Assembly (NCBI GenBank): GCA_944324635.1
Contig: CALUXC010000004.1
Location: 62,001-126,000 of the forward strand
Reading direction: 5' to 3'
DNA from: Candidatus Avelusimicrobium intestinipullorum
GTDB lineage: Bacteria > Elusimicrobiota > Elusimicrobia > Elusimicrobiales > Elusimicrobiaceae
DNA: 64,000 nt
Shown here: positions 6,838 through 26,814 of the stretch, piece by piece
Layout of the letters: every line of letters starts with the position of its first letter
How positions within the stretch are numbered: position 1 is the first letter of the stretch
Notes under the pieces: model-generated
The model's database searches: none
What the model saw: the letters and a program-made list of their open reading frames with translations, nothing else
Told to the model about the DNA's origin: nothing
Program-made: the position numbers and the translations under genes

Positions 6838-7791
6838 TTAGCAGCTGCCGGCAGGGGCCGCAGCGGCGGCACCGGGCTGGGCGGCATTGGGATTAAGGAA
6901 CGAGAAACCTTCAATCTCGGAAGCGGAACCGAAGTCCAGCTGCACTTTTCCTTCCCACAAGAAAGTCGGAGAGGCATTCACGCCGTATTCTTCGCCATAT
7001 TTGGCTTCTTGTTTCAAGAGCTCCATACCTTCTTTGTCAAATTTCTTCATGATTTTTTTGCTGCTGATACCGGCTTCTTCCATCGCTTTATCCCAGCGGC
7101 TGGAGCGGTAATCTTTATTGCGGATTTCCAAATATTTCCAGAATTTTTCCGGGTAGTATTTGGCAATCAACAGCTGGCGGATATCTTCTTCCCATTCGGC
7201 AGAACCGTGCAAGCTGGAAAAGCCGTTGGCTTCATCATAGCTCACCACATAGCGGATTTTGATTTCTTTCCCTTCCGGCAATTTGCCGTCTTTTTGGGCT
7301 TGGATAACCAGGTTTTCAGCCATGGCGCCATAAGGGCACTGAGACATAACGAAAATTTCCATCACGCCCGGTTTAGCCGTTTTGCCCGTGTACACGCCCT
7401 GGCGGGTTTGATGGGGCAAAATAATGAAATCGGCATTTTCCTGCGCGTAACCATATTGGAGGTGTTTTTCCAATTTGGTGCGGATATCGTCCGTTTTCTT
7501 AATCAGATACAGCGGCAAGAAGCTGTAATCCAAACCGGCCAACTTGGGATCGGAGGCCACGTCTTTATAAGACACTTTCGTCACCACCGGTTCGGCATTT
7601 AAGAACTGCGCAATGCCGGCAGTAAGCTGAGGGTCTTCTTTGCCCGCTTTATACTCATCGGATTCCACAATAATGAATTCCGCTTTGGCCTTGGCAGGCG
7701 TTTTGGCCTTTTTGGCCGCTTTTTTGGCAGGGGCGGCAAACGCAAAACCGGCTACCGCACAAGCCAACAATACCGTGAATAATTTTTTCAT
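6838..7791 (-). CDS. Exported DsbA/thioredoxin-like protein with a single active-site cysteine
   Basis: A signal peptide (MKKLFTVLLACAVAGFAFA) is followed by a Lys/Ala-rich linker (about 20-40) and a domain of about 100 residues without recognised family. A thioredoxin-fold domain then begins at VMEIFVMSQCPYGAMAENL. The usual CPxC is CPYG here, so the second cysteine is missing. A cis-proline loop (NASPTFLWEGK) is present near residue 280. The protein ends in an Ala/Pro/Gly-rich tail with a terminal Cys. The ATG at 7791 is chosen over the longer frame because AGGAG lies upstream and a signal peptide follows directly. As last gene of the tad core operon it may help fold cysteine-containing pilus or surface proteins, but with one Cys it may act as an isomerase or bind rather than oxidise (inference). 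Confidence 0.8.
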   Translation of the reverse strand: MKKLFTVLLACAVAGFAFAAPAKKAAKKAKTPAKAKAEFIIVESDEYKAGKEDPQLTAGIAQFLNAEPVVTKVSYKDVASDPKLAGLDYSFLPLYLIKKTDDIRTKLEKHLQYGYAQENADFIILPHQTRQGVYTGKTAKPGVMEIFVMSQCPYGAMAENLVIQAQKDGKLPEGKEIKIRYVVSYDEANGFSSLHGSAEWEEDIRQLLIAKYYPEKFWKYLEIRNKDYRSSRWDKAMEEAGISSKKIMKKFDKEGMELLKQEAKYGEEYGVNASPTFLWEGKVQLDFGSASEIEGFSFLNPNAAQPGAAAAAPAGSC

Positions 7792-7808
7792 TACCCCATT
7801 TCTCCTTT

Positions 7809-8078
7809 TTATTTGTCTTCCAACTCTACGCGTACGCCGCGAATTCCGACGGCGCACAACAAATTATACGCCAACAAAAAGAACACCGTGGAAACCAAAA
7901 AGAGCAGCGTGCTCTGAATGGCCCGCATCACCAGCCCCATGATATAGGCCACGCTGATGACGGCGTCCGGGTTAAAAATCTCCATAAAAGCGCTCAGCAG
8001 CATCACCACGAATACGGCCAGCGGGAAAACGGAAAACAACACCGTTGAAATGCCAATTTTTTTGATTTCTACTCTCAT
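7809..8078 (-). CDS. Small two-helix membrane protein, DUF3566-like
   Basis: An 89-residue integral membrane protein with two hydrophobic stretches (about 10-32 and 48-75). It ends in GIRGVRVELEDK, a C-terminal pattern resembling small DUF3566-type transmembrane proteins; the family call is from memory of that pattern and is tentative. AGGAG before the ATG at 8078 fixes the start. It lies 21 bases after the HAMP-PAS receptor and 17 before the DsbA-like gene, so it is co-transcribed with them. The function is unknown. Confidence 0.65.
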   Translation of the reverse strand: MRVEIKKIGISTVLFSVFPLAVFVVMLLSAFMEIFNPDAVISVAYIMGLVMRAIQSTLLFLVSTVFFLLAYNLLCAVGIRGVRVELEDK

Positions 8079-9221: not shown

Positions 9222-10652
9222 CTATTTCAACAACTCTTCCACTTTGCGCAAGCCCAAATCGGCGTCACTGTTGCCGGGGTCTAACTGCTTGGCCACAATC
9301 CAGGCCTGGCGGGCGCGTTCGTAATCGTCTTGGTTAAAAGCGTCCAAGCCTTCAATGTATTTGGCGCGGGAAGCGGCACTGGCTTCGGCCGACACACGGT
9401 TCACCGTACCGCCCAAAGAAGGCAGCGTTTCATTGGGGCCTACCGCTCCTACGGAAGAACCGATCGTTCCCGTTCCCGTGGCACCGGGGATTACCGCCCC
9501 GCTGTTCGGAATACCGGGCACATTTCCTTCCACGGCCACCGTTTCAATGGGTTCTTCTTCCAACGCTTCGTTGGCGGCGTCTTCCGCTTTCTGGGCGGCT
9601 TCTTCGGCTTTCTTAGCGGCAGCTTCCGCCTTTTCCGCCTGCACCTGTTTTACGCGCAGGTGGTTTTCTTTAGCGTTGCGAGCCCGTTTAATCAGGCCGT
9701 CCATCGTAGAGGAATCCGCCCCCCATTTCTTGGCATTGGTCCAATAAGAAATGGCTTGGTCAAAACGATTGGAATTGTACGATTTATTCCCCGCATTGTA
9801 ATAGCCCGCGGCAATTTCATTTTTCAGCTGAGACATGTATTTCTGCACGCGCGGGTCGCCGGGTTGGATTTTGGTAATCCGTTCAAACACGGCGTAAGAT
9901 TCCACGAACTGGCCTTTGTTGTAAAATTCCAAAGCCTGTTTCATGGAGTCGGCCACCTGCTGTTTGCGCAATTTATTTTCCGTGTCGGAAATTTTGGCCA
10001 CCAGTTTCGGGTCGTCTTTGCGCATCAACAGGGCGTTGTACCACGCGTCCAACGCGCGTTGATAGTCGCCCTCATCGTAGGCTACATCGCCGCGGCGGGT
10101 GTATTCTTTGGCAATTTCATAATCAATTTTGCGCTTCCAGGACTGCGCCTTGGAGTTGCCGGGCTGAATGGTTAAAATTTCATTTAATTTATCGTTGGCT
10201 TCCACCAGGCGTCCGCTGTCATAGAGGCGAATGGTTTCCTGGAATTTAGCCTCAATCACCTGCGATTCGGAAATCGTACCGTAGGTGCCCATATTGTTGG
10301 CCTGCTGGGCCAGGGTTTGGGCTTGTTTGAAATTGGGGTCAATGCTCAAAATGGTCTGCGCCATTTCCTGGGCGCGCTGATAGTCCCCGCGTTTATACAG
10401 CAGGTAGGCATTTTCGTACACCATGCGCAGGGTGTAGTTTTGGATGCGCTGTTTTTCCAGCTGAACGGTGGAGAGATATTGTTTCTTTTCTTCCACATCG
10501 TTCAACGTGCCCATGGAAATTTTGCTTAAATCCAAAAGCATTCCCTCTTCCTTGCCGTGCTGACGGACGGGAATTTCTTTGCGGAAAGTCGCCGCTTGGG
10601 CGCAAACCGCGCCAAAAACAAAAAGCAGTGTTAAGGTAAGATATTTTTTCAT
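9222..10652 (-). CDS. Exported TPR protein of the tad operon (TadD-like role)
   Basis: A signal peptide (MKKYLTLTLLFVFGAVCAQA) precedes several tetratricopeptide repeats, clearest around residues 60-110, 125-170, 175-215, 235-290 and again at the C-terminus (about 430-470). Between them lies an Ala/Glu/Lys coiled coil (about 320-350) and a Gly/Pro/Thr-rich linker (about 360-415). Exported TPR proteins are a standard part of Tad loci (TadD, a pilotin or scaffold for the secretin), and this gene follows tadC by 11 bases, so the same role is likely here. It is longer than typical TadD and has no lipobox, so equivalence is inferred from context. Confidence 0.8.
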   Translation of the reverse strand: MKKYLTLTLLFVFGAVCAQAATFRKEIPVRQHGKEEGMLLDLSKISMGTLNDVEEKKQYLSTVQLEKQRIQNYTLRMVYENAYLLYKRGDYQRAQEMAQTILSIDPNFKQAQTLAQQANNMGTYGTISESQVIEAKFQETIRLYDSGRLVEANDKLNEILTIQPGNSKAQSWKRKIDYEIAKEYTRRGDVAYDEGDYQRALDAWYNALLMRKDDPKLVAKISDTENKLRKQQVADSMKQALEFYNKGQFVESYAVFERITKIQPGDPRVQKYMSQLKNEIAAGYYNAGNKSYNSNRFDQAISYWTNAKKWGADSSTMDGLIKRARNAKENHLRVKQVQAEKAEAAAKKAEEAAQKAEDAANEALEEEPIETVAVEGNVPGIPNSGAVIPGATGTGTIGSSVGAVGPNETLPSLGGTVNRVSAEASAASRAKYIEGLDAFNQDDYERARQAWIVAKQLDPGNSDADLGLRKVEELLK

Positions 10653-10663
10653 AGGTTTATCCT

Positions 10664-11554
10664 CTAAAATCCCATACCGCCGCTGACCAAACCGCTAATC
10701 ATCGGGGCTAAAATTAAAATAAAAATCGTCGGGAAAATAAACATAAAGAGCGGGAACAACATTTTAGTGGACGCCTGAGCCGCCAATTTTTCGGCGCGGC
10801 TTAAGCGGCGGGAGCGCAAGTCCGACGAGAAGTTGCGCAGCAAATCCACCAAGCTGGTACCCAGTTCGTCGGATTGAATAATCAAGCTTACCAACGAACG
10901 CACTTCCGCCACACCCGTACGGGCCGAAAAGCGTTCCAACGCTTCTCTGCGGGAGTACCCCAGCTTAATTTCGTTAATCGTCTTATCCAGCTCTTCTTCC
11001 AAAACCGTCTTCACTTTGGCGATTTTGATAATTCTTTCAAAAGCGGTCAAATAATCCAAACCGGACTCAATAATCAAAGCCGCCAAATCCACCGTGGTGG
11101 AAAAGTTGCCCAGAATTTCAGCCTGGCGTTTCTGGATTTTGCTTTTAATCATCACGTCCGGCACCATAAAGCACACCGGCACCAAAATCACCGGCCATAC
11201 AGCCTGGAACAGCAACATGATGGCCGCCGGAATGGCCAAGGCCGCGATGATTTTAGTATATAAAATATCTACAGGCTGCGGGTTATCCGGGCTGCCCAGC
11301 TGCATGTGCATTTCTTCCAAGCTTTTTTCCAAGTGGAAGTTGTGCAGGCAGAAAACGGCCAGTCTGTCCATCAGCTTTTCTTCGGGTTTTAAGCGCGCGA
11401 AGCTGGAAGTGGACTTAAAGCGGCGCACCGCCACGTCCACAATGTCTTCCTTTTTAGGCTTGGGCGCCAGCAAACCGAAGATAGTGAGGAATACGGAAAA
11501 CATCCCCACCGCCAACAATAAGTTCAGCCCTAACGTAAACGCTAAATTGTTCAT
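10664..11554 (-). CDS. tadC: TadC, inner-membrane platform protein of the Tad pilus
   Basis: A 296-residue protein of the type II secretion F-domain (GspF) class: N-terminal helix, paired helices near 105-140, then the cytoplasmic helical T2SSF domain (with EELDKTINEIKLGYSRREALERF split across residues about 190-215), and C-terminal helices. TadC with TadB forms the platform on which the TadA ATPase works. It follows tadB with 2 intervening bases. Size and helix layout are normal for the family. Confidence 0.9.
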   Translation of the reverse strand: MNNLAFTLGLNLLLAVGMFSVFLTIFGLLAPKPKKEDIVDVAVRRFKSTSSFARLKPEEKLMDRLAVFCLHNFHLEKSLEEMHMQLGSPDNPQPVDILYTKIIAALAIPAAIMLLFQAVWPVILVPVCFMVPDVMIKSKIQKRQAEILGNFSTTVDLAALIIESGLDYLTAFERIIKIAKVKTVLEEELDKTINEIKLGYSRREALERFSARTGVAEVRSLVSLIIQSDELGTSLVDLLRNFSSDLRSRRLSRAEKLAAQASTKMLFPLFMFIFPTIFILILAPMISGLVSGGMGF

Positions 11555-11556
11555 AA

Positions 11557-13182
11557 TTATACCCGCACTTCTCCCATCTTTTTAAGCACTTTCATGCCGA
11601 TGCCAATCCAGATGACACAGAACAGGAATACGAAAATTCCCACCGGGCTTGCATAGAACGAAATCATCTGAGTCGGGTTGAAAATAAACATCACCAGCAT
11701 CATTACAAACGGCATAATACTGACCACGATAGACTGGATTTTTTGCTGGGCCGTCATAGCTTGCAGCTTTTCTTCCAGTTTACTTTCTTCGCGGATATTT
11801 TCCACCAAGCGCGCAAAGATGACCGTTAAGTTACCACCCACCTGGCGCTGAATGATGATGGCTTTAATAATATACGAAAGCATACGGCTTTCCACACGGT
11901 CGGAGAGGCCGTCCAGGGCTTTTTCAAAAGGCGTACCCAGCTGATAGTTTTTCACTACCAGGCCGAATTCGTCCGCAATAGGCGGCAGCATATCTTTGGA
12001 CACCAATTCAAACCCCTGTACAATATCCATACCCGAACGAAGCGAGTTGGAAAGCAAAATCAGCGCGTCCATCAGTTGTTTGTTGATGCGTTTGCCGCGG
12101 CTCTTTTTCAGTGCGTCCAACACGGCGCTGGGCATGCGGATACTGACCACCCCGCCCAAAAACACCACCAGCAGGAAAATAAACACACCGACAAATCCGC
12201 CCGTCATTAATCCCAAGAACAAGCCAAACAACCCGAACACAAAAACCGTACCAAACACGATATATTTAATATCAATCGTTACGAACTGACGGTTAAAATC
12301 TTCCGCCCATACCACGCTTTTTTGGCGGTACTCTTCCACCATGCGCAAAATATTTTCGCGTTTGTTTTCCAACAACAGATACACGGCCAGGCCCGCTAAA
12401 GCCGAACCCAATACAATCAAAATCAAGCTGAACAACCGATCCGCAAACGTGGTGCGGTAAATCTTTGGATCCGGCGGATAAGTGGGAATGGCAGTCCCCA
12501 AAAACTGCGAGAACAAATGGTTCGATAATACCACCACCGCCATCACGGACTGACGATACTTATTTTCCCGTTCCGAAATCGGGCTGGAGAAAGATTCAAT
12601 GGTGCTGAAAAACTCGTTGTTAATCAACTCAAAGGTAGAAAGCATGGAGCGCGCACGGCCGTCCATACTGTCTTTCATGATCAGCAGTTTCTGCCCGCGC
12701 AGCAAATCTTTATTCAAGCGGTCCAGCGTAGCCATCAAGTTAATGCGGTTCCCCACAAATCCGCGGGAAAGCTGCTCCAACACTACCGGCTGGCTCGGAT
12801 CCATTGATTTGGCCGCTCTATCCAAAAACAAATAGACGTTGGAAAACGCCTGACGCCACAAATCCACTTCGCTGTAGGTGCCTTCGTTGGGCACGTATAC
12901 CACTTTGTTTTTGTCCATGCGTTCCAATTCCGCGGCAAACCATTCGGGCATTTTCACGGTGCGCCCGGAAGAAGCTCCGCACACGTTGGGCAGCGTATAG
13001 ACCTTCTTTTCGGCAGGCAAATTTACGTCAAAAAATTCCGCCAAAATACGCATTTTTTCCTGAGCGCATTGAATCCGCGCCAAATCCTGCTGACCCAGCG
13101 CGCGCGCCTGCAACGGCACCGGTAACACCGCCGCCGCCAACAGCAATACGCCCAACAGCAATACGTGAACTTTTTTCGTCAT
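11557..13182 (-). CDS. tadB: TadB platform protein with an extra exported N-terminal domain
   Basis: The C-terminal half (about 250-541) is a normal TadB: helices near 252-270 and 310-350, a T2SSF domain with LMDALILLSNSLRSGMDI and QRQVGGNLTVIFARL, and C-terminal helices. The N-terminal 250 residues are unusual. They start with a signal-like segment (MTKKVHVLLLGVLLLAAAVLP) and continue as a soluble, mostly helical region before the first real membrane helix, so they should lie in the periplasm. Typical TadB proteins are about 300 residues and lack this part. The extension contains two cysteines (near 39 and 68). It may contact the short secretin or CpaB across the periplasm (inference). Confidence 0.88.
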   Translation of the reverse strand: MTKKVHVLLLGVLLLAAAVLPVPLQARALGQQDLARIQCAQEKMRILAEFFDVNLPAEKKVYTLPNVCGASSGRTVKMPEWFAAELERMDKNKVVYVPNEGTYSEVDLWRQAFSNVYLFLDRAAKSMDPSQPVVLEQLSRGFVGNRINLMATLDRLNKDLLRGQKLLIMKDSMDGRARSMLSTFELINNEFFSTIESFSSPISERENKYRQSVMAVVVLSNHLFSQFLGTAIPTYPPDPKIYRTTFADRLFSLILIVLGSALAGLAVYLLLENKRENILRMVEEYRQKSVVWAEDFNRQFVTIDIKYIVFGTVFVFGLFGLFLGLMTGGFVGVFIFLLVVFLGGVVSIRMPSAVLDALKKSRGKRINKQLMDALILLSNSLRSGMDIVQGFELVSKDMLPPIADEFGLVVKNYQLGTPFEKALDGLSDRVESRMLSYIIKAIIIQRQVGGNLTVIFARLVENIREESKLEEKLQAMTAQQKIQSIVVSIMPFVMMLVMFIFNPTQMISFYASPVGIFVFLFCVIWIGIGMKVLKKMGEVRV

Positions 13183-13210: not shown

Positions 13211-15523
<2,313 letters not shown>

Positions 15524-15528
15524 ACCGA

Positions 15529-16275
15529 TTATTCCACAATTTCAACCGTGATGAACAGGAACAAAGAGCGCTGTTCTTCCGTAACGTCTTTGTTTTTGAA
15601 CAAAAGGCCAATAAGCGGAAGGCGTCCCAAGAAAGGCACGCGGTCCTCAGATACGTTGCGGGAACTGCTCTTTAAGCCGCCGATAACCAACGTTTCGCCG
15701 CTGTTGATTTCCACGTGGGTTTCCACATCGCGGTTGGTAAACGAAGGCGCGGTGGCCGTACCGATAACCACAGTTCTGGAATAGTCCACCGTGGAGACGG
15801 ACAACTGCACCTGCAAATCAATAATGTTGTTGCGTTCCGGAATAATCGTAGGAAGCACGTTAAGCAAAATACCGTATTCTTCCAGCTGGGAACCGACACC
15901 CTGGTTGTTCACGATCGGTATCGGCACTTTGCCGCCAACGGTAATTTTGGCGCTGTTGCCGGAAGACGTAACAATTTTCGGGTTGGAAAGCACCTGGGCG
16001 CGTCCTTCCGTTTCCATCAAGCGCAAGCGGGTGGTAACGGCGGTTTTGCGTTCAAACTCGCCCAAGGACAAAATGCCGGGGATGGAAGCTTCTTCAAAGT
16101 CAAACAGCTGGTTCCACGAAAACCCTTTTACGCTTTGCATGGTACCGCTGATTTCCACCACGTCGGCGCTGACAGCTACCAAACGCGTTTTTTTGGCAAA
16201 CGCGCAAGACGGCATCAGCACGCTGAAAAGTAATACCGCAAGAGATATTTTGGCTATAAACGTTTTATTCGTCAT
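15529..16275 (-). CDS. cpaC: Minimal secretin (RcpA/CpaC C-domain only)
   Basis: A signal peptide (MTNKTFIAKISLAVLLFSVLMPSCAFA) leads straight into the secretin C-domain: VLSNPKIVTSSGNSAKITVGG, LNVLPTI, and the signature VPFLGRLPLIGLLFKN near the end. At 248 residues it is roughly half the size of typical Tad secretins and lacks the N-terminal periplasmic domains (BON/N1-type). Truncation by frameshift is unlikely, since cpaB ends only 14 bases upstream of this start and AGGACA stands before the ATG. The missing periplasmic ring may be supplied by the exported domain of TadB, the TPR protein or CpaB (inference). Confidence 0.88.
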   Translation of the reverse strand: MTNKTFIAKISLAVLLFSVLMPSCAFAKKTRLVAVSADVVEISGTMQSVKGFSWNQLFDFEEASIPGILSLGEFERKTAVTTRLRLMETEGRAQVLSNPKIVTSSGNSAKITVGGKVPIPIVNNQGVGSQLEEYGILLNVLPTIIPERNNIIDLQVQLSVSTVDYSRTVVIGTATAPSFTNRDVETHVEINSGETLVIGGLKSSSRNVSEDRVPFLGRLPLIGLLFKNKDVTEEQRSLFLFITVEIVE

Positions 16276-16289
16276 ATTTGTCCTGTTCG

Positions 16290-17042
16290 TTATTGAAATA
16301 ATTTTTCAAAAGTCGCAATTTCCATCAAGTAGTTGGTCACGTCGCCGTGAGAGCGCAAGATGACGGAAACATCGCCTTCCGATTGAGCCAACGCCAAATA
16401 CTGCGCGTCACGCGGGGAGAGCGCCAAGGACAGCGCCGAGCTGTCCGAATACGCAGCGGCATCTTCTTCTTTATTCTTCATGGCATTGGCGGCCTTGGCG
16501 TCCAAGCCTTGGCCCAAATCGGAACCAACGCCCAACACTTTCACGTTCTGCAACAGCGTCACCGTCACTTTCTGGCGGGTGCCGCTTTTCATTACGGCTT
16601 CAAACGTCAAAAGAACGTCGATGTTGTCGTCCGGTTTAATCATGCTGGCGGTGGCTATCGGTACGTTGATGATGAAACCTCTCATTTGCACCGGGATTTT
16701 GCTGGATAAGCCCGCCTCGGGAGACAACGAGGTAATGGCATACTTAGAGATCTGGTTGCCTTTGGGAATCTGAATACGCGCAACGGCATTTTCAATGGCC
16801 TTAAAGTCGGCGTCCGTGGTGTAGGTGAAAGCGTCTTTTTGCAGATAGGCAGCCGGCACCGGCACGGGTTTAATAAAGTCGCGTTTAATTACTTCGCGTT
16901 CTTTAATATCGCGCACCGGAACAAAAACTTGTTTGATGTTTTTGGAAGCATTCAGCTTCTTTTCCGCGCTGCTTACAATCATCGCGTATACAATGGCCGC
17001 CAAAATGGCTACCACCAACGGAAGAAAGATTCCTTTTTTCAT
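16290..17042 (-). CDS. cpaB: CpaB/RcpC pilus-assembly protein (SAF domain)
   Basis: A 250-residue protein with one N-terminal membrane helix (about 5-22), a SAF-type domain beginning VFVPVRDIKEREVIKRD, and an RcpC-like region with GFIINVPIATASMIKPDDNIDVL. CpaB proteins link the inner-membrane platform to the secretin and bind envelope glycans. Length and order match the family. AAGGAG precedes the ATG. It lies between the TadE-like gene and the secretin gene, the usual Tad arrangement. Confidence 0.92.
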   Translation of the reverse strand: MKKGIFLPLVVAILAAIVYAMIVSSAEKKLNASKNIKQVFVPVRDIKEREVIKRDFIKPVPVPAAYLQKDAFTYTTDADFKAIENAVARIQIPKGNQISKYAITSLSPEAGLSSKIPVQMRGFIINVPIATASMIKPDDNIDVLLTFEAVMKSGTRQKVTVTLLQNVKVLGVGSDLGQGLDAKAANAMKNKEEDAAAYSDSSALSLALSPRDAQYLALAQSEGDVSVILRSHGDVTNYLMEIATFEKLFQ

Positions 17043-17085: not shown

Positions 17086-17574
17086 CTATTTGGTATCGGA
17101 ACTCAGATACGCTTTTTCCACCGGCATACGGGCCGTAGCCTTGATGCGGCGGATCCCCTCTCTGCGGGGCTCGCTGGCCAGCACATAGCTGGTCCCCGGG
17201 AACATCAACCGTACGGGATACGTAACGGTTACAACCACGTCTTCGTGGCGGTGTCTTTTATACATCGGGTCGGTACCGGTGGTTTCCACTTTCACGTTCA
17301 CGCCGATTCCGGCCGCCTTGGTGCCAAAAACTTTTTGTTTGGCTTGGTTAATCTTCTGTGTAATAACGGTTCTGTCCGGCCGGCCGCTGGGCTTTTTGAC
17401 CGCCACCAGCGAACCGATACGGGCAAACTCATAGGAAGCGTGGTTAGCAATAATCGTGTGGTAGGCGATGTTGCCGTATTCAAGGACGAAAAACACCATC
17501 AACATAAATACCGGCAAAATCAACATCAACTCCGCAGTTACCTGCCCGCCACACTTCCTACGAAATTTGTTCAT
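17086..17574 (-). CDS. tadE: TadE-like pseudopilin
   Basis: A 162-residue protein with a basic leader ending in CGGQVTAELML, so prepilin-type cleavage after Gly10 leaves Glu at +5, followed by a 20-residue hydrophobic helix. The exported part is beta-rich, with a VVVTVTYPVRLMFPG strand region typical of TadE. It follows the major pilin gene by 11 bases and precedes cpaB. It is expected to be a minor subunit processed by the same peptidase as Flp; no TadV-type peptidase gene is in this window. Confidence 0.85.
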   Translation of the reverse strand: MNKFRRKCGGQVTAELMLILPVFMLMVFFVLEYGNIAYHTIIANHASYEFARIGSLVAVKKPSGRPDRTVITQKINQAKQKVFGTKAAGIGVNVKVETTGTDPMYKRHRHEDVVVTVTYPVRLMFPGTSYVLASEPRREGIRRIKATARMPVEKAYLSSDTK

Positions 17575-17585
17575 ACGGCCTCAAA

Positions 17586-17807
17586 TTACATTTCGTTCAT
17601 GCTGCCGGTGATTTTGCCTTTCACTTGTTCAAACAAATCAGGCATAAATTTCTTGATCAGCACACCGGCCAAACCGGCCACGCCCACGACCACTACGAGC
17701 ATCAACACGTATTCGATCGTGTTCTGGCCTTCTTTTTTCTTCAGGCAGCCCAAAGCTTGCGCTTTCAAGGCGTCCATTTTGTTCTGCAAAGCTACGATAA
17801 ACTTCAT
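17586..17807 (-). CDS. flp: Flp pilin, probable major subunit
   Basis: A 73-residue pilin. A leader of about 27 residues ends KKKEG, with cleavage expected before QNTIEYVLML; Glu(+5) and Tyr(+6) are present. One hydrophobic helix rich in Val/Ala/Gly and a short amphipathic tail (DLFEQVKGKITGSMNEM) follow. The perfect AGGAGG ribosome site 9 bases before the ATG is among the best in the window and suits an abundant structural subunit, hence the call as major pilin. Confidence 0.88.
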   Translation of the reverse strand: MKFIVALQNKMDALKAQALGCLKKKEGQNTIEYVLMLVVVVGVAGLAGVLIKKFMPDLFEQVKGKITGSMNEM

Positions 17808-17835: not shown

Positions 17836-18024
17836 CTATCTGCTTGCGTCATAGTCCGACAAAATAACTTTAGCCCCTTCTTCAAATTGCTGCGGCACCA
17901 AATACGAATAGAGTACGTAGAAAGAAATAATCGCCGTAAAAAGTCCGGCCGCCGTTATAATATATTCTACCGCGGTTTGACCTTTTTTATTCCCAAAGAT
18001 TTTCTTTCCCGCTCCTTTCGTCAT
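17836..18024 (-). CDS. flp: Flp-like pilin
   Basis: A 62-residue pilin-like protein: basic leader, KKGQTAVEYIITAAGL with Gly15 cleavage site and Glu-Tyr at +5/+6, one helix with a Tyr-rich second half, and an acidic tail. It lies 3 bases after the PorV-like gene and 28 before the major pilin. Its weaker ribosome site (AAGG) suggests a lower level than the neighbour; probably a minor pilin. Confidence 0.82.
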   Translation of the reverse strand: MTKGAGKKIFGNKKGQTAVEYIITAAGLFTAIISFYVLYSYLVPQQFEEGAKVILSDYDASR

Positions 18025-18027
18025 ACC

Positions 18028-19002
18028 TTAAAATTCAATACCCAACGCAATCTGTTGCGAGGTTCCCAGCGCCCCAAACGGAGTGACCGCGTAATCAATG
18101 GACGCGCCATAACCAAACAGTTCAGAGCTGTAAATACCAAACCCGAACGATACTTTAGACGTTTCCGCCAGGCCCAAATCGCCTACCCACGAGTCTTTGT
18201 CATTGATACCCGTGTTTTCGCGGGAATAGTAACCCACGCGCAGATCAAAGCGAGCCACCTGCAGCATATCTTCCGGAATATGAATTTCCAAGCCTACGCC
18301 GTAGCGGCCTTTATCGTCGCGGTATTTCATGTATTCACCGGAAATGGTGAAGTAGCGCGTATTCAAGTCCGCGCCCAAGCGCCAGCCACGGGGCATTTCG
18401 TCTTTATCGCCCAAGTTCACAATCGCGCCGCCCAAACCGAGCCAATTTACCAAGCGTAATTTGGCGCCTACGTCAAAACCTACGTTGTTATAATGATCCG
18501 AATCCAATTTTTCGGAAATATATTTGGCCGTACCGCCCAGCTGCAACTTCTGGTCAAAGAAACCGCGCGCAATGGACAGCCCGCCCACAAAGTTCTGCAC
18601 CGGCGTACCTACTTCCGGGTTTTGTTCTCCATGCTCTCCGCGGAAGTCAAACCCGTCCATATCCATATAGTTGACGGTCACACCGATAATGGTTTTACCA
18701 ATCGGCTGCAAATACGCCAACGTGCGGGCTTTATAGCCTTGCAAATAGTCCAAATACGAGAACTGCAGTTCCCGCGTCGTGGCAGAAGCCGCACCCGCCG
18801 GGTTCCAGAATAAGGCTTCCGGACCGTCAGCAATGGACACATAGGCATTACCTAAGGCCTGGGCTCTGGGGGAGCCGGCGTCAATCTTCAAAAACGCACT
18901 CGCGCTGGTACCGGCATCGGAATAAATGGAAGAAGCCGACGCGCTTGCGCTTACAAGACCGACCGTTAAACAAGCAATTAAAACTTTTAATCTTATATTC
19001 AT
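18028..19002 (-). CDS. porV: PorV/PorQ-family outer-membrane protein (UPF0164)
   Basis: A signal peptide (MNIRLKVLIACLTVGLVSASA) is followed by the family N-terminus SAFLKIDAGSPRAQALGNAYVSIADG and EALFWNPAG, then alternating strands ending in aromatic residues, consistent with a beta barrel. PorV in Bacteroidota type IX secretion carries cargo with C-terminal sorting domains to the surface sortase; PorQ is its paralogue. Here the gene stands directly after a giant secreted protein whose C-terminus resembles such a domain, and directly before pilin genes. Whether it acts in secretion, attachment or both cannot be told from sequence. Confidence 0.88.
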   Translation of the reverse strand: MNIRLKVLIACLTVGLVSASASASSIYSDAGTSASAFLKIDAGSPRAQALGNAYVSIADGPEALFWNPAGAASATTRELQFSYLDYLQGYKARTLAYLQPIGKTIIGVTVNYMDMDGFDFRGEHGEQNPEVGTPVQNFVGGLSIARGFFDQKLQLGGTAKYISEKLDSDHYNNVGFDVGAKLRLVNWLGLGGAIVNLGDKDEMPRGWRLGADLNTRYFTISGEYMKYRDDKGRYGVGLEIHIPEDMLQVARFDLRVGYYSRENTGINDKDSWVGDLGLAETSKVSFGFGIYSSELFGYGASIDYAVTPFGALGTSQQIALGIEF

Positions 19003-19085
19003 AAATTAGTTTCTTCTGCCGGACCTATCCGGACTTTTAGTTAAGTTCCGGCCCCACGGGCCACATCAGTACTGCAACAACACCC

Positions 19086-19107
19086 TTGGGGGGCTTTCGC
19101 CCCCCTC
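19086..19107 (-). terminator. GC-rich stem-loop after the giant surface-protein gene
   Basis: GGGGGGC (19088-19094) and GCCCCCC (19099-19105) flank a 4-base loop that reads GAAA on the minus strand. The hairpin lies just after the stop of the giant gene, but no T-run follows. It may be a partial terminator or a processing/stability element that sets the ratio between the giant protein and the pilus genes. Confidence 0.55.
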
Positions 19108-19111
19108 AGGT

Positions 19112-22100
19112 TTACGGCACCAAAATCTTGACTACTTTCTGGCAGTGTTCGCGGCCGTTTTGGGCTTTGAAATCTACCAACCCGAAGTATACACCGCGGG
19201 CTACCTTTTTACCATGCTGGTTGGTGCGGTCCCAGCGGCAGCGCAAGGCTGCGTTGCGGATGTTGGGGAATGCCGCCAAATCATCTTCGTCCATCTGGGT
19301 AGAGCCGTTCGGCGTGTTATCCGGGTTGAACTGCAGGCTGCTGCCCATGGTAATCTGGTAGTTGTTCGCGTCCACACAGGTATAGTTGCTGTCGCGTACC
19401 AAGTCGCCCGCCAAGTTGAAGAACTTGATAGATACCGTTCCGGGCACGGGCATCTTGGTAATTTCCAGCGTACCTTTGGAAGCGTCGCGCAGCGGGTTCG
19501 GATAGAAGAATACCGTTTTCTCCCAGTCTTCGCAGACGAAGCGCCCGTCACCGATAGCCACCGTCGCCTTATGCAGGTTCTGGTATTCATAGGTATCGGC
19601 TACTTTATCAATGCTCCACAGCTGGCTGTTGGTGCTGGCATCGTCTCCGCCCAAGATTTCACCGGTCACGCTGTCGATATCGGCGGAGTTGAGCGCCGTT
19701 ACGAAGCGGAAGGGATAAGTCCCGTCCGGCACTTCTTGTTGGGCATAGTCGCGGCCGTCCCACAATTCTTCAATCAGCGTGGTAGCGGGGCGGATACCCA
19801 CAATGGCTTTCACCAATACTTCGCGGATATCTTTCACTTCCGTACCCGTCGTGGGGTTACGCAAGGTACCTTTTTGGTAATCGTAAATCGTCGTACCGGG
19901 TTTGAAGATTTGGATAGCCACTTTCATCGGAACAGAAATCTGGTAGCCAATCTTCATGTCCGTATTGCGCTGGGACAGGGCATAACCGTCCGCTTCCAGC
20001 AAGTCGAACACTTTAAGCAAGTCCGCATTGACCGTGACGCTCTTGACCGTTTCCTGATACAGGCCCGGATCCGGATAGTTCTTCGCAATCAAGCGGATTT
20101 CATAAATGCCCGGTTTCACATAGATACCGTTGTTATCCGTACCGTCCCAGTAAATCTTGCGGGTAACGTTCGGATCAAAATCGCTGGTGTTGACAATCGT
20201 CATCGTGGAGAGGTATTTGCAGACCTCGCCCGCGGAGGTATTGCGCTGAGTCAGTTTGCCGCTCGTGCCATAGCACATATTGGGTTTCAGGGCCACCACA
20301 GCCACTTCCACGGTAGACGCACGGGACACCGCAAAGTTAATTTCATACGGCGGGATAAACACCGGGCCCGAAGACGCATTGAACAACTGCGGAGAGTTCG
20401 GGTACACCACCACGGAACCGTCCAAGAAGTACACGGGACCGCGAGTAACGTTGATTTTGCTGACCGGTTTTTCCGTCGCATACAAGAAATCTTGCCGCAT
20501 TACCTCGGCCGCCGTTTTGAACGGAGCGCCAGGCAAGTAGTTCGCTTCCGGATTGCTGCCGGCAATTTTTTCGCCGCCGTTGGCATAGTAGCGGTTGAAC
20601 GCTTCGTCCGAGCGAGCAGAGATAAAGAACGGATATTGTCCGTCCGGCACCATTTCGTAGGGGCACTGTTTGAGATCCGTCGCACCCGTGCACTTGGCAA
20701 TTTCCTGCGCCGTGTGGCGTTCGGTAGACGGAGTCGGGTTATAGAAGTACAGCGCGTCCCATTCTTCGGTGATCTGCAACCCGTCACCCACTTTGGTAGC
20801 GGAGCGATCAAACGTTTTGACCGGCTGCAAGCGCACGTCCACCACACCGGAGGCCGCTTCGGCCGCCGTTTTGGGGTAGTTGGTAAACGTCGTATCGTTT
20901 ACATAGATACAAGCATTTTTAGACGTTACTTTCGCAGGGTCCACATACCCGCCCGTAAAAATAGCAGCATCGGTCGTCGCGTCGCAAATGCGGGGCGGCC
21001 AAGCCGTGGCCGTATTGGTCGTCACGTTCACGGTTTCACGTTTCAACGTAACGACATACTGTTCTTCACCCGGCACCACAGAACCCGTCACAAAGTTCGG
21101 GTTTTCCGTCACCGTGATGGTATCGCGGGTATACGGGTTATTGGAACCCGTCAAAGTGGTTACCGTTCCCAAGGCCAAGTTGGTCAACGCAATGGGCGCG
21201 GTGCTTCCCTGTTCATACACATTGGCAGACGCGAGCGAATTGGTATAGCCCGTGGCCAACAGAGAAGAAACGACCGTGTAATCATTATAATCGCCGGTTG
21301 TAGAATTGTAAGCCGGGATCACCACATCCTTATTATAGATGTTGATCTGCACGTTCATCGCTTTAGACAACATATAGGATATGGTCGCTTTGGCCTCGCT
21401 GTCGCCATATACGTCCGTAGTGGCAACGTCCACCACACGGTACATATCCACCGGGAATACGGCAGAGGCTTTATTGGTTACCGCGGGGAACATGGCGTCT
21501 TTGGTCTCCACGGTAAACATATAGGTACCGGGGGTGACCATGCGGCCTTGATCGTCGCGGCCGTCCCAAGACAAGGTGTTAAGCTGTTGAGCTACCTGCG
21601 TGACGCCTTCTTCGGGCGTTAAGTGTTTCACCGGCACGCCGGCAGCGTTTTCCACGCGCGCCACAACCGTAGAATCGCGCACGATGGAATATTTGAAAAT
21701 GAACGGATCCAAACCGTAAGCCGTCGGGCTGGAACCAACCGTGGAATAGCTGACGGGCTGAATGGTGATATCCACCAAACCGCGTTCAATCGCCACCTGA
21801 CCAACGGAGTAGTTCTGCGTTTTCACACCCGTGAAGCACTGTCCGTTGATTTCTTTATCGGCAGAAAAGTTATTTTGACCGGTTGCGGCTGTTCCGCAAA
21901 CAGCCTGGCTATAAAATACCGGTGTATTATCGTTGCCGCCTACGGCATTTAAGTATTTACCGTTGTAGGGGATTTCCGCCCACAGCACGTACACATAGTT
22001 ACCGTCCGGCATGGGCGCACCATAAGCAAAGCTCTGCGTGCAGCCGGCTTGGGTGGTACAAGTGGTTCCGTCAGACATCTTTTCATTATAGGCATACGTG

Positions 22101-23884
22101 CGGACACAGCCATTCGGATGATACTTACAACCAGCATCCACATCACATGTACCGGCCAGAGGAGCCCCTCTGTCATCTACCGCATTAGCGGGATAGGTCG
22201 CTCCTTTGGGAAGCGTCAAAGTCATGCTTGTATTCAAGCCGCACAGACCGTCCCATCTAGAGGTAAAGTTCATGCGGGCGGTGCGGTCTTCTTCCGAGCG
22301 GTACACCAGCGTTCCGCCCACAGGGGTCGGGCCGGTACCCGTAGGTTTGGAAGAATCGGTCACCAAATCCGTAGCGGTAGAAGCCCCGTCAAAAGAAGTA
22401 CCGGGAGTATAGATTTCCCAATACACTTTAGAAGCTTCCGTGGGAACATAGTTAATAGAGGCATAAGCCGTAGATTTTTTGTTCAAGCCGGTAGCCACGA
22501 TATCCGTCAGTTTGAGCGGATCAAGCGATACCTGGCGCGTAACGGCGCGGGAGAAGTCCACCCCCGGCCATTCGTCTTGCGCTTTGGCCTGGATAGAGGC
22601 AATATAGTTACCCGCCGGCAACAGCAAACCGTTATCGTTGCGGCCGTCCCAAGAATCGAATTCCACAATTTGTTTATCGGCTTCGGTTCCTTTCATGCCT
22701 TCGCCAACGCGCGGCTGCCAATCAACCAACGTACGCACTTTCTGCGTCGCTTCCAATTCACCATCATTCGTATCGCCATACTTAATATCGTCTCCGTTGG
22801 ACGCGTCAAAAATAGCGACGCGGACATCGGAATCTTTACTTAACCGATAGGCGAAAGTGTAGGGCTGGGCAGATACGGCCGTAATGTTACCCACCACGGT
22901 AGGCGTACTGCGTACGGAATGCACATTCGTCACGTCCACCTGTATCGGGATTTGGTTCATACCCGGGTAGGCAATCGTGGAGTTAAACTCAATTTTGTCC
23001 GTGATGATATTGTCACCAGGCGAATCGGTAGAAACGGTAGCGCGGTAGGCGAAGTTTCCGTTGGATTTACCAAATTCGCCACCGATTTCGTAAGAACCGT
23101 CCCACGCCGCACAGAACGTAATGGGCTGGTTAGAAGGCGTACCGTCATCGTTGAAAATCACATAGTTACAGCTCTTGTTAGGGCAGTTGGTATCATTTAA
23201 TGTGGTGCTGCACTGCCCAGGAGCGGGAGTATTTGTTCCAAAATGATAACAGGTAGAACCGCGCAATTCATATTTCGGAGCCGGGCACACATAGCCGGCA
23301 TTGGCATCGCCGGGGCAGTGGTAAGAACCGCAAATAGCAGCGTCATTTTCCGTATCCGGATACAAGTCAATCGTGCGCACGGCCGGAGTTTCTTCCGGGT
23401 TTTCTATATTTTTACCATTGTAATACTTAACAATATCAAACTTAATTTGCTGAAGAGGGAAAGCAATAGAGTAGGTACTCTGCGACATGGGCTTGTTGGT
23501 GCAATACACTTGCATACACAAAGACAAACAATGGTTCGGATAGTTGTTTGGCACCTTCGGAGAAGGATAGGGCTGATCATACTCAATCAGGGCAGAGCTC
23601 ACCCACGGATCATTTTGATTAGCATTGCTGGACGGATTTACTTTCGTTGTAAAGCTAACGTTGTTATTATCCGACACAACAGTGTTTCCCCAATTGCAAT
23701 AAACTTGGTCATCGCCCGAGGCATTATTTTGATAATACACACCGGCAGAACGTACCTCAGCCGTTTGGGCAAACAGCGGCGAAGACGCCGCGAAGAGCAA
23801 CGCGGTTAAAACGGCGCAAAGCGCCGCTTTACCCAGGAAAACCCGAAGTAAACTTTTTACTTTATTCATTGTGCAAGTATCCAT
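19112..23884 (-). CDS. Giant secreted repeat protein with FlgD-like Ig modules and a C-terminal sorting-type domain
   Basis: About 1590 residues with a signal peptide (MNKVKSLLRVFLGKAALC onward, ending near SSPLFAQ). The body repeats a FlgD-type immunoglobulin module, marked by WDG..D..G....PG.Y, at about residues 415, 549, 778, 1047, 1250, 1377 and finally 1550. The N-terminal 300 residues are Cys-rich and carry many Asn/Pro turns. The last 130 residues (FYPNPLRD, then VSIKFFNLAGDLVRD, then ARGVYFGLVDF, ending KVVKILVP) match the pattern of type IX-like C-terminal sorting domains. Possible starts are TTG 23896, ATG 23884 and ATG 23869; 23884 fits the AGAAGGGAA site best. It heads the tad locus and is probably a surface adhesin or stalk protein (inference). 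Confidence 0.85.
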   Translation of the reverse strand: MDTCTMNKVKSLLRVFLGKAALCAVLTALLFAASSPLFAQTAEVRSAGVYYQNNASGDDQVYCNWGNTVVSDNNNVSFTTKVNPSSNANQNDPWVSSALIEYDQPYPSPKVPNNYPNHCLSLCMQVYCTNKPMSQSTYSIAFPLQQIKFDIVKYYNGKNIENPEETPAVRTIDLYPDTENDAAICGSYHCPGDANAGYVCPAPKYELRGSTCYHFGTNTPAPGQCSTTLNDTNCPNKSCNYVIFNDDGTPSNQPITFCAAWDGSYEIGGEFGKSNGNFAYRATVSTDSPGDNIITDKIEFNSTIAYPGMNQIPIQVDVTNVHSVRSTPTVVGNITAVSAQPYTFAYRLSKDSDVRVAIFDASNGDDIKYGDTNDGELEATQKVRTLVDWQPRVGEGMKGTEADKQIVEFDSWDGRNDNGLLLPAGNYIASIQAKAQDEWPGVDFSRAVTRQVSLDPLKLTDIVATGLNKKSTAYASINYVPTEASKVYWEIYTPGTSFDGASTATDLVTDSSKPTGTGPTPVGGTLVYRSEEDRTARMNFTSRWDGLCGLNTSMTLTLPKGATYPANAVDDRGAPLAGTCDVDAGCKYHPNGCVRTYAYNEKMSDGTTCTTQAGCTQSFAYGAPMPDGNYVYVLWAEIPYNGKYLNAVGGNDNTPVFYSQAVCGTAATGQNNFSADKEINGQCFTGVKTQNYSVGQVAIERGLVDITIQPVSYSTVGSSPTAYGLDPFIFKYSIVRDSTVVARVENAAGVPVKHLTPEEGVTQVAQQLNTLSWDGRDDQGRMVTPGTYMFTVETKDAMFPAVTNKASAVFPVDMYRVVDVATTDVYGDSEAKATISYMLSKAMNVQINIYNKDVVIPAYNSTTGDYNDYTVVSSLLATGYTNSLASANVYEQGSTAPIALTNLALGTVTTLTGSNNPYTRDTITVTENPNFVTGSVVPGEEQYVVTLKRETVNVTTNTATAWPPRICDATTDAAIFTGGYVDPAKVTSKNACIYVNDTTFTNYPKTAAEAASGVVDVRLQPVKTFDRSATKVGDGLQITEEWDALYFYNPTPSTERHTAQEIAKCTGATDLKQCPYEMVPDGQYPFFISARSDEAFNRYYANGGEKIAGSNPEANYLPGAPFKTAAEVMRQDFLYATEKPVSKINVTRGPVYFLDGSVVVYPNSPQLFNASSGPVFIPPYEINFAVSRASTVEVAVVALKPNMCYGTSGKLTQRNTSAGEVCKYLSTMTIVNTSDFDPNVTRKIYWDGTDNNGIYVKPGIYEIRLIAKNYPDPGLYQETVKSVTVNADLLKVFDLLEADGYALSQRNTDMKIGYQISVPMKVAIQIFKPGTTIYDYQKGTLRNPTTGTEVKDIREVLVKAIVGIRPATTLIEELWDGRDYAQQEVPDGTYPFRFVTALNSADIDSVTGEILGGDDASTNSQLWSIDKVADTYEYQNLHKATVAIGDGRFVCEDWEKTVFFYPNPLRDASKGTLEITKMPVPGTVSIKFFNLAGDLVRDSNYTCVDANNYQITMGSSLQFNPDNTPNGSTQMDEDDLAAFPNIRNAALRCRWDRTNQHGKKVARGVYFGLVDFKAQNGREHCQKVVKILVP

Positions 23885-23924
23885 TTTGGGGACCAATTTC
23901 CCTTCTCAAAAATTAAGTTTTTAC

Positions 23925-24087: not shown

Positions 24088-24106
24088 AAAAGAGAAACTC
24101 TCTTTT
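24088..24106 (-). terminator. AT-rich hairpin at the end of the diguanylate cyclase gene
   Basis: AAAAGAGA (24088-24095) pairs with TCTCTTTT (24099-24106) around a 3-base loop and overlaps the TAA stop. A loose T-rich stretch follows on the minus strand. It separates the GGDEF transcript from the tad locus. Confidence 0.5.
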
Positions 24107-25604
24107 ACGCGGCGGCCTGGTCGGCCACTTCGCGGTAAACGGCAAAGCTGCCGCGCCCGTTTTGTTTCACCACGTACAACGCCTTATCCGCTTTTTCCAA
24201 AAGCACGTCCGGCGTTTCTCCGTCAAAGGGGAAAGAAGAAATTCCCTGGCTGATGCTTAAATGCACTTCTTTGCCTTCGGTATAGCGGTCCGGCAAGGTA
24301 ATGGCACGGATGCGCTCCTGCAAACGCTTGGCGATGATTTTGGCTTCCTCGCCGTTGGTGCGCGGGAGCATAATCACCATTTCGTCCCCCCCGAATCGGC
24401 AAGGGACGTCGGTCTGGCGCAGGCTGGTGCGAATCACGCGGCTGACTTCTTTAAGCGCCCAGTCGCCAATTTGGTGGCCATATCCGTCGTTAATTTGTTT
24501 GAACAAGTCAATATCCATAATAATCAGCGACAGGGTCAAATCAAAGCGTTTGGACCGGTAAATTTCTTCGGCGAATTTTTCGTTGAAGTAGCGGCGAACC
24601 GGCAGTTTGGTCAGTTCGTCATAGTTGGAAAGTTCCTGCACGCGTTCAAACAGGCGGGCATTGTCAATAGACAAGGCCATCTGCGACGCAAACTGTTGCA
24701 GGGAAATAAAGTCCATATATCCAATGCGGCGGCGGGAAAGAATATTGTCAAACGCCAAAAACCCCACCTTATTGCGCTGCACCTTAAGCGGAATATAGAT
24801 AACACTGCGGGTAGAGCGGTAGGTGGCCGTGGAGTCAAACACTTCTTTTAGCAAATGACCTTCCCCTTCGGGCAAAGTTTTTCCGTCCTGCTGGGTGACT
24901 TTGCCGGAAATATCCACCCCCAACACGGATTTAATTTTGCTTCCTTCCGAGTCCGTCAAATACAGGCGCACCCGGTCAAAACGGAAGTAACGCTGCACTC
25001 CTTTCAAAATGAGCTCCAATCCGTCGTTTAAGCGCAGCGAAGAAGCAAAAATGGTGGACAAATCGTTTAACGCCGTGGAAATATTAAGCCGCTGGTTTTT
25101 GGCCTGGTCTATTTCCGTATTGCGCAAATTGTGGGAAATTTCCTGCCCCAGGGCTTTAATGAGTTCTTTTTCTTCGTTGGAAAAAACACGATTCTTGCGG
25201 AAGCGTTCCAAGCGCAGCACCCCTACTTTTTCCTGCATAAAGTTGTGCACTTCGCCTGCTTTTAATTCCACGCTGGGGCGTTCCCATTTCACCAGCACAT
25301 AGATGGCGGGATAGCTTAAATCGGTAGATTCGGTAATGCCGGTTTGCAACAGCTGTTTTAAGAAAACGGGTTCATTAAGAACGGAAATATCTTCCTGCAT
25401 ATCCATGCAGTACTCTTTTTTGCACATCATTTTAAGCGACAATAGGGCCCGCTCCTGCTGCCAGTCAAAAAAATACACCCGGTCCAACTTAAACAGGTTA
25501 CGCAAAGCCGGCAAGGCACATTCCAGCAGTTCGCGCTTGTCCTGGAAAGACTGGTTTAGCTGTTTATGAAATTTATAGAGCGTATAGGATTTTTTATCAA
25601 ACAT
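24105..25604 (-). CDS. Diguanylate cyclase with two GAF-like domains
   Basis: A soluble 499-residue protein. Two GAF-like sensory regions (about 15-160 and 170-315) precede a GGDEF domain (about 335-490). The active-site loop is RFGGDEMVI, an accepted GGDE[FM] variant, and the inhibitory I-site RQTD stands five residues before it, so the enzyme should make cyclic di-GMP and be feedback-inhibited. There is no signal peptide or membrane helix. The gene follows the solute-binding-like gene by 4 bases, so the two are translated together, and it stands next to the tad locus, which cyclic di-GMP often controls in other bacteria (inference). Confidence 0.92.
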   Translation of the reverse strand: MFDKKSYTLYKFHKQLNQSFQDKRELLECALPALRNLFKLDRVYFFDWQQERALLSLKMMCKKEYCMDMQEDISVLNEPVFLKQLLQTGITESTDLSYPAIYVLVKWERPSVELKAGEVHNFMQEKVGVLRLERFRKNRVFSNEEKELIKALGQEISHNLRNTEIDQAKNQRLNISTALNDLSTIFASSLRLNDGLELILKGVQRYFRFDRVRLYLTDSEGSKIKSVLGVDISGKVTQQDGKTLPEGEGHLLKEVFDSTATYRSTRSVIYIPLKVQRNKVGFLAFDNILSRRRIGYMDFISLQQFASQMALSIDNARLFERVQELSNYDELTKLPVRRYFNEKFAEEIYRSKRFDLTLSLIIMDIDLFKQINDGYGHQIGDWALKEVSRVIRTSLRQTDVPCRFGGDEMVIMLPRTNGEEAKIIAKRLQERIRAITLPDRYTEGKEVHLSISQGISSFPFDGETPDVLLEKADKALYVVKQNGRGSFAVYREVADQAAA

Positions 25605-25608
25605 AGGG

Positions 25609-26814
25609 CTACCCCTGATAAATGGAAAGCAGATATTCTATTTCTTTGGCGGCCAGGTCCAATTCCCGGTCCAGCGAGGCCTGCGTAAAGCGGTTCTCCA
25701 CAATCTGCGTGGCGCACACGGCCAAAATACGCTTTAAGATTTCCATAATCGTGCCCGTGACGGTGATATTGGGCAGTGTACGGGCCGAGGCCAAAATGTT
25801 GCTGTAAGTTTGCAGCCGCTGAGAAGAGGAAAAGATGAATTGTTCAAAAGCATCATCAAACGCAGGGAACGCGTCTATCATAGCCGCATAGCGGAGCTGA
25901 TTATCCGGCCGGGCGCAGAATTTAATAAATTTAAGCGCGTTTTTCTTTTCCTGCGAGAGCTTATTGATAAACAAATTCATGCCCGACAAGTACGAATAAT
26001 AGGTGGTACCCGTCGTCGGTACCGGCAGGGTGCGCACGCGTATGCCGCGCCGCGCGTTGAAGGTGCTTACGCCCTGTTTGCGGGAAATCATCATACTGGC
26101 TTTGCCGGAAACAATCGTCCCCAGAGAGCCGCGTTCGCGCAAAATGGGCATATAGTTTTTTAGGGCCAAATTTACGTAATCGCGAATGCCTTCCTTAAAC
26201 GCCTTGGTGCCCACTAACGTAGTCCCCAAATCGGCCGACAGCAAATCCCCGCCGCGGCCCCAAATGCAAGGCAGCGCATTGCGCACGGAAAGCGAACCGC
26301 GCCAATCGCTGTTTTGCATGGGATAATAGCCGGGGGTATCTTTGAATTGTTCGCGCAGGGCCTGGCAGATGTTTAACAACCCGTCCCAAGTAGCCAAATC
26401 GTGTTCGGGCTTGGCGGTAACCAATTTCAAATGGTCCGCCCGGTAATGCAGGGCGCTTAAATCAAACCACCACGGATAGGAATAGATGTCTTTGGTTCCG
26501 GGCTGATAGCAGTGCGGCTTAAGAGGAACCAAACAATTGGATAGCGACAGGCCCGGATCCAACTGGGACAAATTTTCCGCCACGCCTTCGCGCACCAACA
26601 GCGCCGTCCAATAATGCGGGATCTGAATCAAATCCGGCACTTCTTCTTCGTAAGTCGGGTTTTTAATGGTGAACATCCGCCGCCACAGCACATTGCGCGT
26701 AAACACGCGCACGGTAACGTCCACGGACGGGTTTTCCTTCTTAAAAAGCTCAATCAGCGAAGCGTAAACCTCTTTGGTTTTATCGCCCGAATCGGGCATG
26801 GCCCACAAAAGCAT
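25609..26814 (-). CDS. Extracellular solute-binding-like protein lacking a signal peptide
   Basis: A 401-residue protein with the fold pattern of family 1 (sugar) ABC binding proteins: MLLWAMPDSGDKTKEVYASL at the start, PDLIQIPHYW, YSYPWWFDLSALHYR, and FIKFCARPDNQLRYAAMIDAFP. Binding proteins of this class normally carry a signal peptide or lipobox. Here the ATG is placed by AAGGAG five bases upstream, and the tsaD stop is inside that leader, so nothing precedes the mature-like sequence. The protein should stay in the cytoplasm. No transporter permease or ATPase is nearby; the partner gene is the GGDEF enzyme 4 bases downstream. It may be a ligand sensor for that enzyme (inference). Confidence 0.82.
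   Translation of the reverse strand: MLLWAMPDSGDKTKEVYASLIELFKKENPSVDVTVRVFTRNVLWRRMFTIKNPTYEEEVPDLIQIPHYWTALLVREGVAENLSQLDPGLSLSNCLVPLKPHCYQPGTKDIYSYPWWFDLSALHYRADHLKLVTAKPEHDLATWDGLLNICQALREQFKDTPGYYPMQNSDWRGSLSVRNALPCIWGRGGDLLSADLGTTLVGTKAFKEGIRDYVNLALKNYMPILRERGSLGTIVSGKASMMISRKQGVSTFNARRGIRVRTLPVPTTGTTYYSYLSGMNLFINKLSQEKKNALKFIKFCARPDNQLRYAAMIDAFPAFDDAFEQFIFSSSQRLQTYSNILASARTLPNITVTGTIMEILKRILAVCATQIVENRFTQASLDRELDLAAKEIEYLLSIYQG

Follow-up and report, generated by a model that had tools for sequence, protein, structure and literature searches.

A giant exported protein and an adjacent PorV-family barrel at the head of a Tad operon in Elusimicrobiaceae: a probable cargo-shuttle pair of a reduced, type IX-like system

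The window analyzed here is a stretch of 64,000 nucleotides from a 1.57-Mb Elusimicrobiaceae genome (Candidatus Avelusimicrobium intestinipullorum, contig CALUXC010000004.1), and our subject is a pair of genes at the head of its operon for a Tad (Flp) pilus. The first gene encodes a giant exported protein of 1590 to 1594 residues (19112..23896, minus strand), composed of FlgD/immunoglobulin (Ig)-type modules and a C-terminal sorting domain. The second encodes a 324-residue outer-membrane barrel of the PorV/PorQ family (18028..19002, minus strand). Judging from sequence comparisons and structure models, the giant protein is probably cargo that crosses the outer membrane by a reduced, type IX-like translocation system, with the barrel as its own PorV shuttle or anchor.

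The open reading frame (ORF) of the giant protein comprises 1594 codons from a TTG start; an in-frame ATG at 23884 would yield 1590 residues, and a further ATG lies at 23869. By eye, the N terminus bears a Sec-type signal peptide (...ALCAVLTALLFAASSPLFAQ-TAE). The Pfam FlgD_ig model scores 75 bits, with four stretches passing individually, and W-D-[G/A/R] motifs of the type found in FlgD_ig and in the type IX C-terminal domain (CTD) occur at residues 265, 416, 548, 777, 1046, 1250, 1379, and 1555. Because there are eight such motifs, the preliminary description of an exported protein of roughly 1590 residues with about seven FlgD-like Ig modules, followed by a CTD, is a fair one. No other gene was found when the genome was searched with FlgD_ig. 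The protein has 32 cysteines, some conserved ones within the CTD, and the gene for an exported DsbA/thioredoxin-like protein lies close by (window 6838-7857), so disulfide bonds are likely.

The CTD occupies the last 150 residues (19115..19564, minus strand; YPNP ... WDRTNQHG ... GVYFG ... KVVKILVP) and is the best-conserved part of the protein, with a conservation of 0.93 over the final 44 residues. Cysteines 63, 109, and 141 (domain numbering) are invariant, and cysteine 11 is nearly so. We compared this terminal stretch of 150 residues in 42 relatives with all NCBIfam models. The type IX models for PorZ and PorU matched every one and TIGR04183 matched 31; two FlgD models also appeared, each in a single relative. 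For the window CTD, the best matches were PorZ, PorU, and TIGR04183. Its AlphaFold2 (AF2) model, with a mean predicted local distance difference test score (pLDDT) of 80.6, has latent PorU as its top PDB match (6za2, E 7e-4) and PorZ (5m11) at rank 8. The flagellar hook cap appears only at rank 29, after several unrelated Ig-like domains. A lysine near the C terminus aligns with the beta-7 lysine that is conserved in type IX CTDs (PMC10994853, PMC11285876), an equivalence based on alignment and not on structure. Thus, while the stalk repeats bear the signature of the FlgD hook-cap Ig domain (PF13860), the terminal domain is closer to type IX CTDs. Both the family comparison and the predicted fold support the view, already present in the preliminary description, that the C terminus is a type IX-type sorting domain and not one more FlgD module. 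The Por_Secre_tail (PF18962) and TIGR04183 models, run over the genome, are too strict for this domain, and the NCBIfam scan of the domain alone is more telling. The PF18962 profile found no match anywhere in the genome. The TIGR04183 match found elsewhere in the genome was rejected as a chance match in an unrelated ORF resembling a sugar phosphomutase.

The barrel encoded next matches the PorV/PorQ-family model NF033709 at 92.3 bits (cut-off, 90); against the PorV equivalog model it scores 21, far below the cut-off of 250. The two PDB entries closest to its AF2 model are PorV from the Flavobacterium johnsoniae translocon (6h3i_F and 8gl6_F), and FadL/TodX structures come next. Its identification as a PorV/PorQ relative is therefore upheld by both family and fold. 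The genome has one further PorV-family match (G000:C1), which proved to be an ordinary FadL. Between the cargo and PorV genes lies a spacer of 109 bp (19003..19111, minus strand) with strong hairpins, among them GGGGGGC-GAAA-GCCCCCC (RNA fold, -43.3 kcal/mol; z, -2.75). There is no T-run after the first hairpin, and promoter and terminator scans gave results at chance level. In a number of relatives this spacer measures only about 17 bp.

A search for Sov/SprA, which the preliminary description had proposed, found a homolog of 1887 residues in the same genome (L075:5119-10782; G000:C2, about 192118-197781). TIGR04189 matches it with 117 bits (E 3.7e-34) and also matches all 21 homologs gathered across the phylum. 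A profile built from these 21 sequences and run against all PDB sequences retrieved SprA as its sole match (E 1.6e-33, profile positions 146-1181). Nothing useful came from PDB searches with profiles of the CTD or PorV, or with the single sequences of the SprA homolog, PorV, and the giant protein. The C-terminal half of the SprA homologs is too divergent to align; their final Phe, typical of outer-membrane barrels, is invariant. We found a SprA homolog in 162 of 199 Elusimicrobiota genomes (132 of the 143 of good quality). All SprA-positive genomes have a PorV-family match as well, and 22 of the 199 have neither. The named genomes that lack both belong to one reduced genus (here g30), so the joint absence may be a single event.

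These components bear on an alternative in which the two genes do not form a secretion pair at all: the C terminus would be a FlgD-type Ig module, the barrel a FadL-like transporter, and the giant protein a periplasmic scaffold for the pilus. We consider this quite unlikely. FlgD_ig and the CTD do have a common sequence signature, and FadL/TodX structures do stand behind PorV in the fold list, yet the CTD scores the PorZ, PorU, and TIGR04183 models over FlgD and has PorU as its best fold, PorV is the best family and fold for the barrel, the true FadL of the genome is a separate gene, and a SprA homolog is present.

Cargo-PorV pairs recur across the phylum. Genomes outside the gut lineage have many PorV-family genes each, while the gut lineage is reduced to one detected pair. 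We examined 60 PorV-like genes in loci that had been selected around PorV or SprA in many families. A gene ending in a CTD stands immediately before 41 of them on the same strand and immediately after 2; elsewhere in the sampled loci, such ends occur in 2.4% of genes. The figure of 41 in 60 is descriptive and not a blind estimate, because the loci were chosen in this way and the CTD profile was built partly from these same pairs. We scanned 41 domains, namely, 40 paired ones and that of the window. TIGR04183 matches 37 of these at E <= 0.01 and TIGR04131 matches 1, and the beta-7 position holds Lys in 33/41 and Arg in 5/41. CTD and PorV distances are correlated over 41 pairs (r 0.68; 0 of 5000 permutations) and also within a single genome with nine pairs (G037; r 0.65, p 0.004). 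The cargo proteins range from 132 to at least 2622 residues, some ORFs being cut by the end of the locus, and their domains are diverse, Ig-like and others. The presence of the parts, their homology, and their pairing are thus direct results of the computation, as is the synteny described below.

Two further arrangements were seen in the sampled loci. Some PorV-family ORFs of 454 to 655 residues appear to be PorV-TPR fusions, with a C-terminal part that matches the tetratricopeptide repeat (TPR) protein of the window (L147:1866-3818; L164:1318-3285; L175:7748-9112). On contigs labeled Candidatus Poribacteria (L055:3-4757, L064:2-8361), a gene with a terminal CTD lies directly before a PorV gene, and the pairing therefore extends beyond Elusimicrobiota.

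Other type IX parts were sought with less success. The sortase PorU (C25), which the preliminary description had listed among the genes to look for, has no match in this genome and a match in only 1 of the 199 Elusimicrobiota genomes, G006 (L158, L159), where the C25 peptidase match is strong and marks a candidate PorU. As for PorK, PorL, PorM, and PorN, the GldM/PorM model was run and had no match in this genome or in the 199, a search without a positive control; GldM is likely, though not proven, to be absent. With PorU missing from 198 of the 199 genomes and GldM not found, the system cannot be counted as a canonical type IX one. The idea of a type IX-like route to the surface thus held for the sorting-type CTD, the PorV relative, and the SprA homolog, and it was not supported as regards a complete system. 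None of the three outcomes that the preliminary description named as refuting it was observed.

Several results weigh against the proposed translocation system. The lack of a PorU match in 198 of 199 genomes and of any GldM match leaves the energizing of export unexplained. Taken alone, the window CTD reaches 14.9 bits against TIGR04183, below the cut-off of 23, and part of the CTD scores reflects the general fold, as Ig modules are alike. The SprA homolog likewise falls below the TIGR04189 cut-off of 200. The AF2 model of the barrel is of modest confidence (pLDDT 63.5), its N-terminal part being poor. Finally, the correlation between CTD and PorV distances can come from joint duplication without binding. 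On balance, because the CTD, the PorV relative, and the SprA homolog are each supported, the best reading among those first suggested remains that PorV carries the protein to the surface as cargo.

From these parts we infer secretion and surface anchoring, along with a stalk or adhesin role, contact with the pilus, and a source of energy, as follows. Sec would export the giant protein, whose signal peptide is seen and would presumably be cleaved. By homology with the F. johnsoniae structures, in which cargo binds the PorV loops inside SprA and exits sideways with PorV (PMC10994853), the CTD would then enter the SprA/Sov homolog and bind the loops of PorV at the lateral opening. The giant protein and its PorV-family partner would exit sideways together. 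As no PorU was found that could cut the CTD and attach the cargo to lipopolysaccharide, the barrel would most likely remain bound as a surface anchor; without a sortase, retention of PorV as an anchor is the simplest reading. Once outside, the FlgD/Ig-type modules of the cargo would act in series as a stalk or adhesin that the cell produces along with the Tad pilus.

This scheme resembles the type IX system of Bacteroidota in its SprA/Sov homolog, its PorV-family barrel, and a cargo with a Sec signal and a C-terminal Ig-like domain that carries the beta-7 lysine. It differs in lying outside the Fibrobacteres-Chlorobi-Bacteroidetes (FCB) group and in that PorU and GldM/PorM were not found. The type A cargo proteins of Bacteroidota normally use a single, recycled PorV in common, whereas a type B cargo is served by a PorP/SprF shuttle of its own, whose gene lies immediately downstream (PMC12618676) and whose barrel anchors the cargo (PMC9143113). 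Elusimicrobiota, by contrast with the shared PorV of Bacteroidota, appear to have one PorV per cargo. In gene order, the present pairs are like SprB-SprF and other type B cargo (PMC9143113, PMC12618676), with a cargo gene, a likely adhesin, followed by the gene for its own barrel; they depart from it in that the CTD is type A-like (TIGR04183 in 37/41, TIGR04131 in 1/41) and the barrel is of the PorV family, not PorP. Elusimicrobiota therefore appear, at the level of sequence, to combine a type A-like CTD with type B gene logic.

The pair is followed at once by a Tad locus, as first described. The Tad genes, all on the minus strand, begin 3 bp from PorV with Flp pilin 1 (17836..18024, 62 residues), recognized by its class III signal (GQTAVEYI, by eye), a weak Pfam Flp_Fap match (E 0.016), and synteny. 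Flp pilin 2 (17586..17807, 73 residues; Flp1_like E 0.0043), a TadE pseudopilin (17086..17574; Pfam TadE 42 bits), CpaB/RcpC (16290..17042; TIGR03177 105 bits, cut-off 71), and a short secretin (15529..16275, 248 residues; Pfam Secretin 143 bits) come next. They are followed by a CpaE-like ATPase fused to the TadA ATPase (13211..15523; T2SSE 209 bits, CbiA 31 bits, TIGR03819 329 bits), a TadB-like protein with a long N-terminal extension (11557..13182; Pfam T2SSF 62.6 bits), a TadC-like protein (10664..11554; Pfam T2SSF 59.5 bits), and, in the position of TadD, an exported TPR protein (9222..10652; TPR families). Profile matches thus cover the Tad set of Flp pilin, TadE, CpaB, secretin, TadA, TadB, and TadC, in the order of known Tad loci, from which this one differs by the cargo-PorV pair at its head, the CpaE-TadA fusion, the very short secretin, and the extended TadB. 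The secretin is mostly secretin domain and lacks the long N-domains of a typical RcpA. The fusion (770 residues) is kept in the family, and its g30 homolog likewise has an N-terminal extension. The TadB-like protein starts with a segment resembling a signal, and about 240 residues lie before its membrane-protein part. Upstream of the cargo gene lies a GAF-GGDEF diguanylate cyclase (24105..25604, minus strand; Pfam GGDEF 149 bits; synteny). This cyclase and a solute-binding protein (window 24105-26814) precede the cargo in most of the family loci with contigs long enough to show them, hinting at control by cyclic di-GMP.

One could suppose a type II-like export of the giant protein by way of the Tad secretin, with the barrel an unrelated accessory and the SprA homolog serving some other purpose. 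The cargo gene does share an operon with the secretin and the Tad ATPase, and its signal is an ordinary Sec signal, as in type II substrates. We nevertheless regard this route as highly improbable, given that, in the loci sampled across the phylum, the CTD-PorV pairing recurs without nearby Tad genes and that SprA and PorV co-occur.

Wherever the contig reaches, the order of giant gene, PorV, and Tad genes is kept in the Elusimicrobiaceae loci (L001-L053). The same order is found in a more distant genus (L157; genome G034, a single contig of 1,643,562 bases), where PorV is 62% identical and the cargo 36-44% identical in its best-aligned parts. Because it is syntenic both in the family and in this genus, the arrangement is not due to chance. 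A different link exists in g30, where the SprA gene, then comF, lies directly ahead of TadE, CpaB, TadA, TadB, and TadC in four genomes (G064, G058, G120, and G146; loci L132:2-9115, L182, L184, L185, and L187). In four other g30 genomes, the Tad genes were not near SprA in the DNA fetched (one locus, L181, being very short). Outside g30, no Tad genes lay downstream of SprA in the 11-16 kb fetched, and a tblastn search of cargo-PorV loci sampled beyond the family likewise found none. Since the two lineages have joined different components to one type of pilus operon, a functional tie between the type IX-like parts and the Tad pilus is plausible, as the synteny suggests; each linkage may also be a single historical event.

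This last point leads to a rival that accepts the pair as genuinely type IX-like. The pair would stand before the Tad genes by genome history, and the cargo, having no part in the pilus, would serve the cell surface more generally as an adhesin or coat protein. Such pairs are numerous elsewhere in the phylum and not near Tad genes in the sampled loci, cargo domains vary, and here the 109-bp gap with its strong hairpins parts the cargo from PorV. Set against this are the order kept across the family, even in the genus whose cargo is so divergent, the gap of just 3 bp between PorV and Flp1, and the separate SprA-Tad linkage in another lineage. We hold this history-based account to be a serious possibility, if somewhat short of probable. 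More doubtful, though still conceivable, is the fullest version of our proposal, an Elusimicrobiota system without the sortase and the PorL/PorM motor, with a PorV for each type A-like cargo as its permanent shuttle and anchor, tied in two lineages to a Tad pilus that may use the cargo as a component at the surface or even help drive its exit.

According to published surveys, type IX systems are confined to Bacteroidota (PMC4793230) or to the FCB phyla, with none elsewhere (PMC11285876), and our search of the open-licence literature turned up no paper that describes such secretion in Elusimicrobiota. If the proposal holds, the SprA homologs and cargo-PorV pairs of most Elusimicrobiota would move the type IX system outside the FCB group, and its core of translocon, shuttle, and CTD would be separable from the sortase and perhaps from the known motor. 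This raises the question as to how a SprA translocon works without a sortase and perhaps without that motor, for which the gut lineage, with a single pair detected, would serve as a minimal model. The synteny with Tad genes suggests, in addition, a way to place a giant adhesin beside a pilus.

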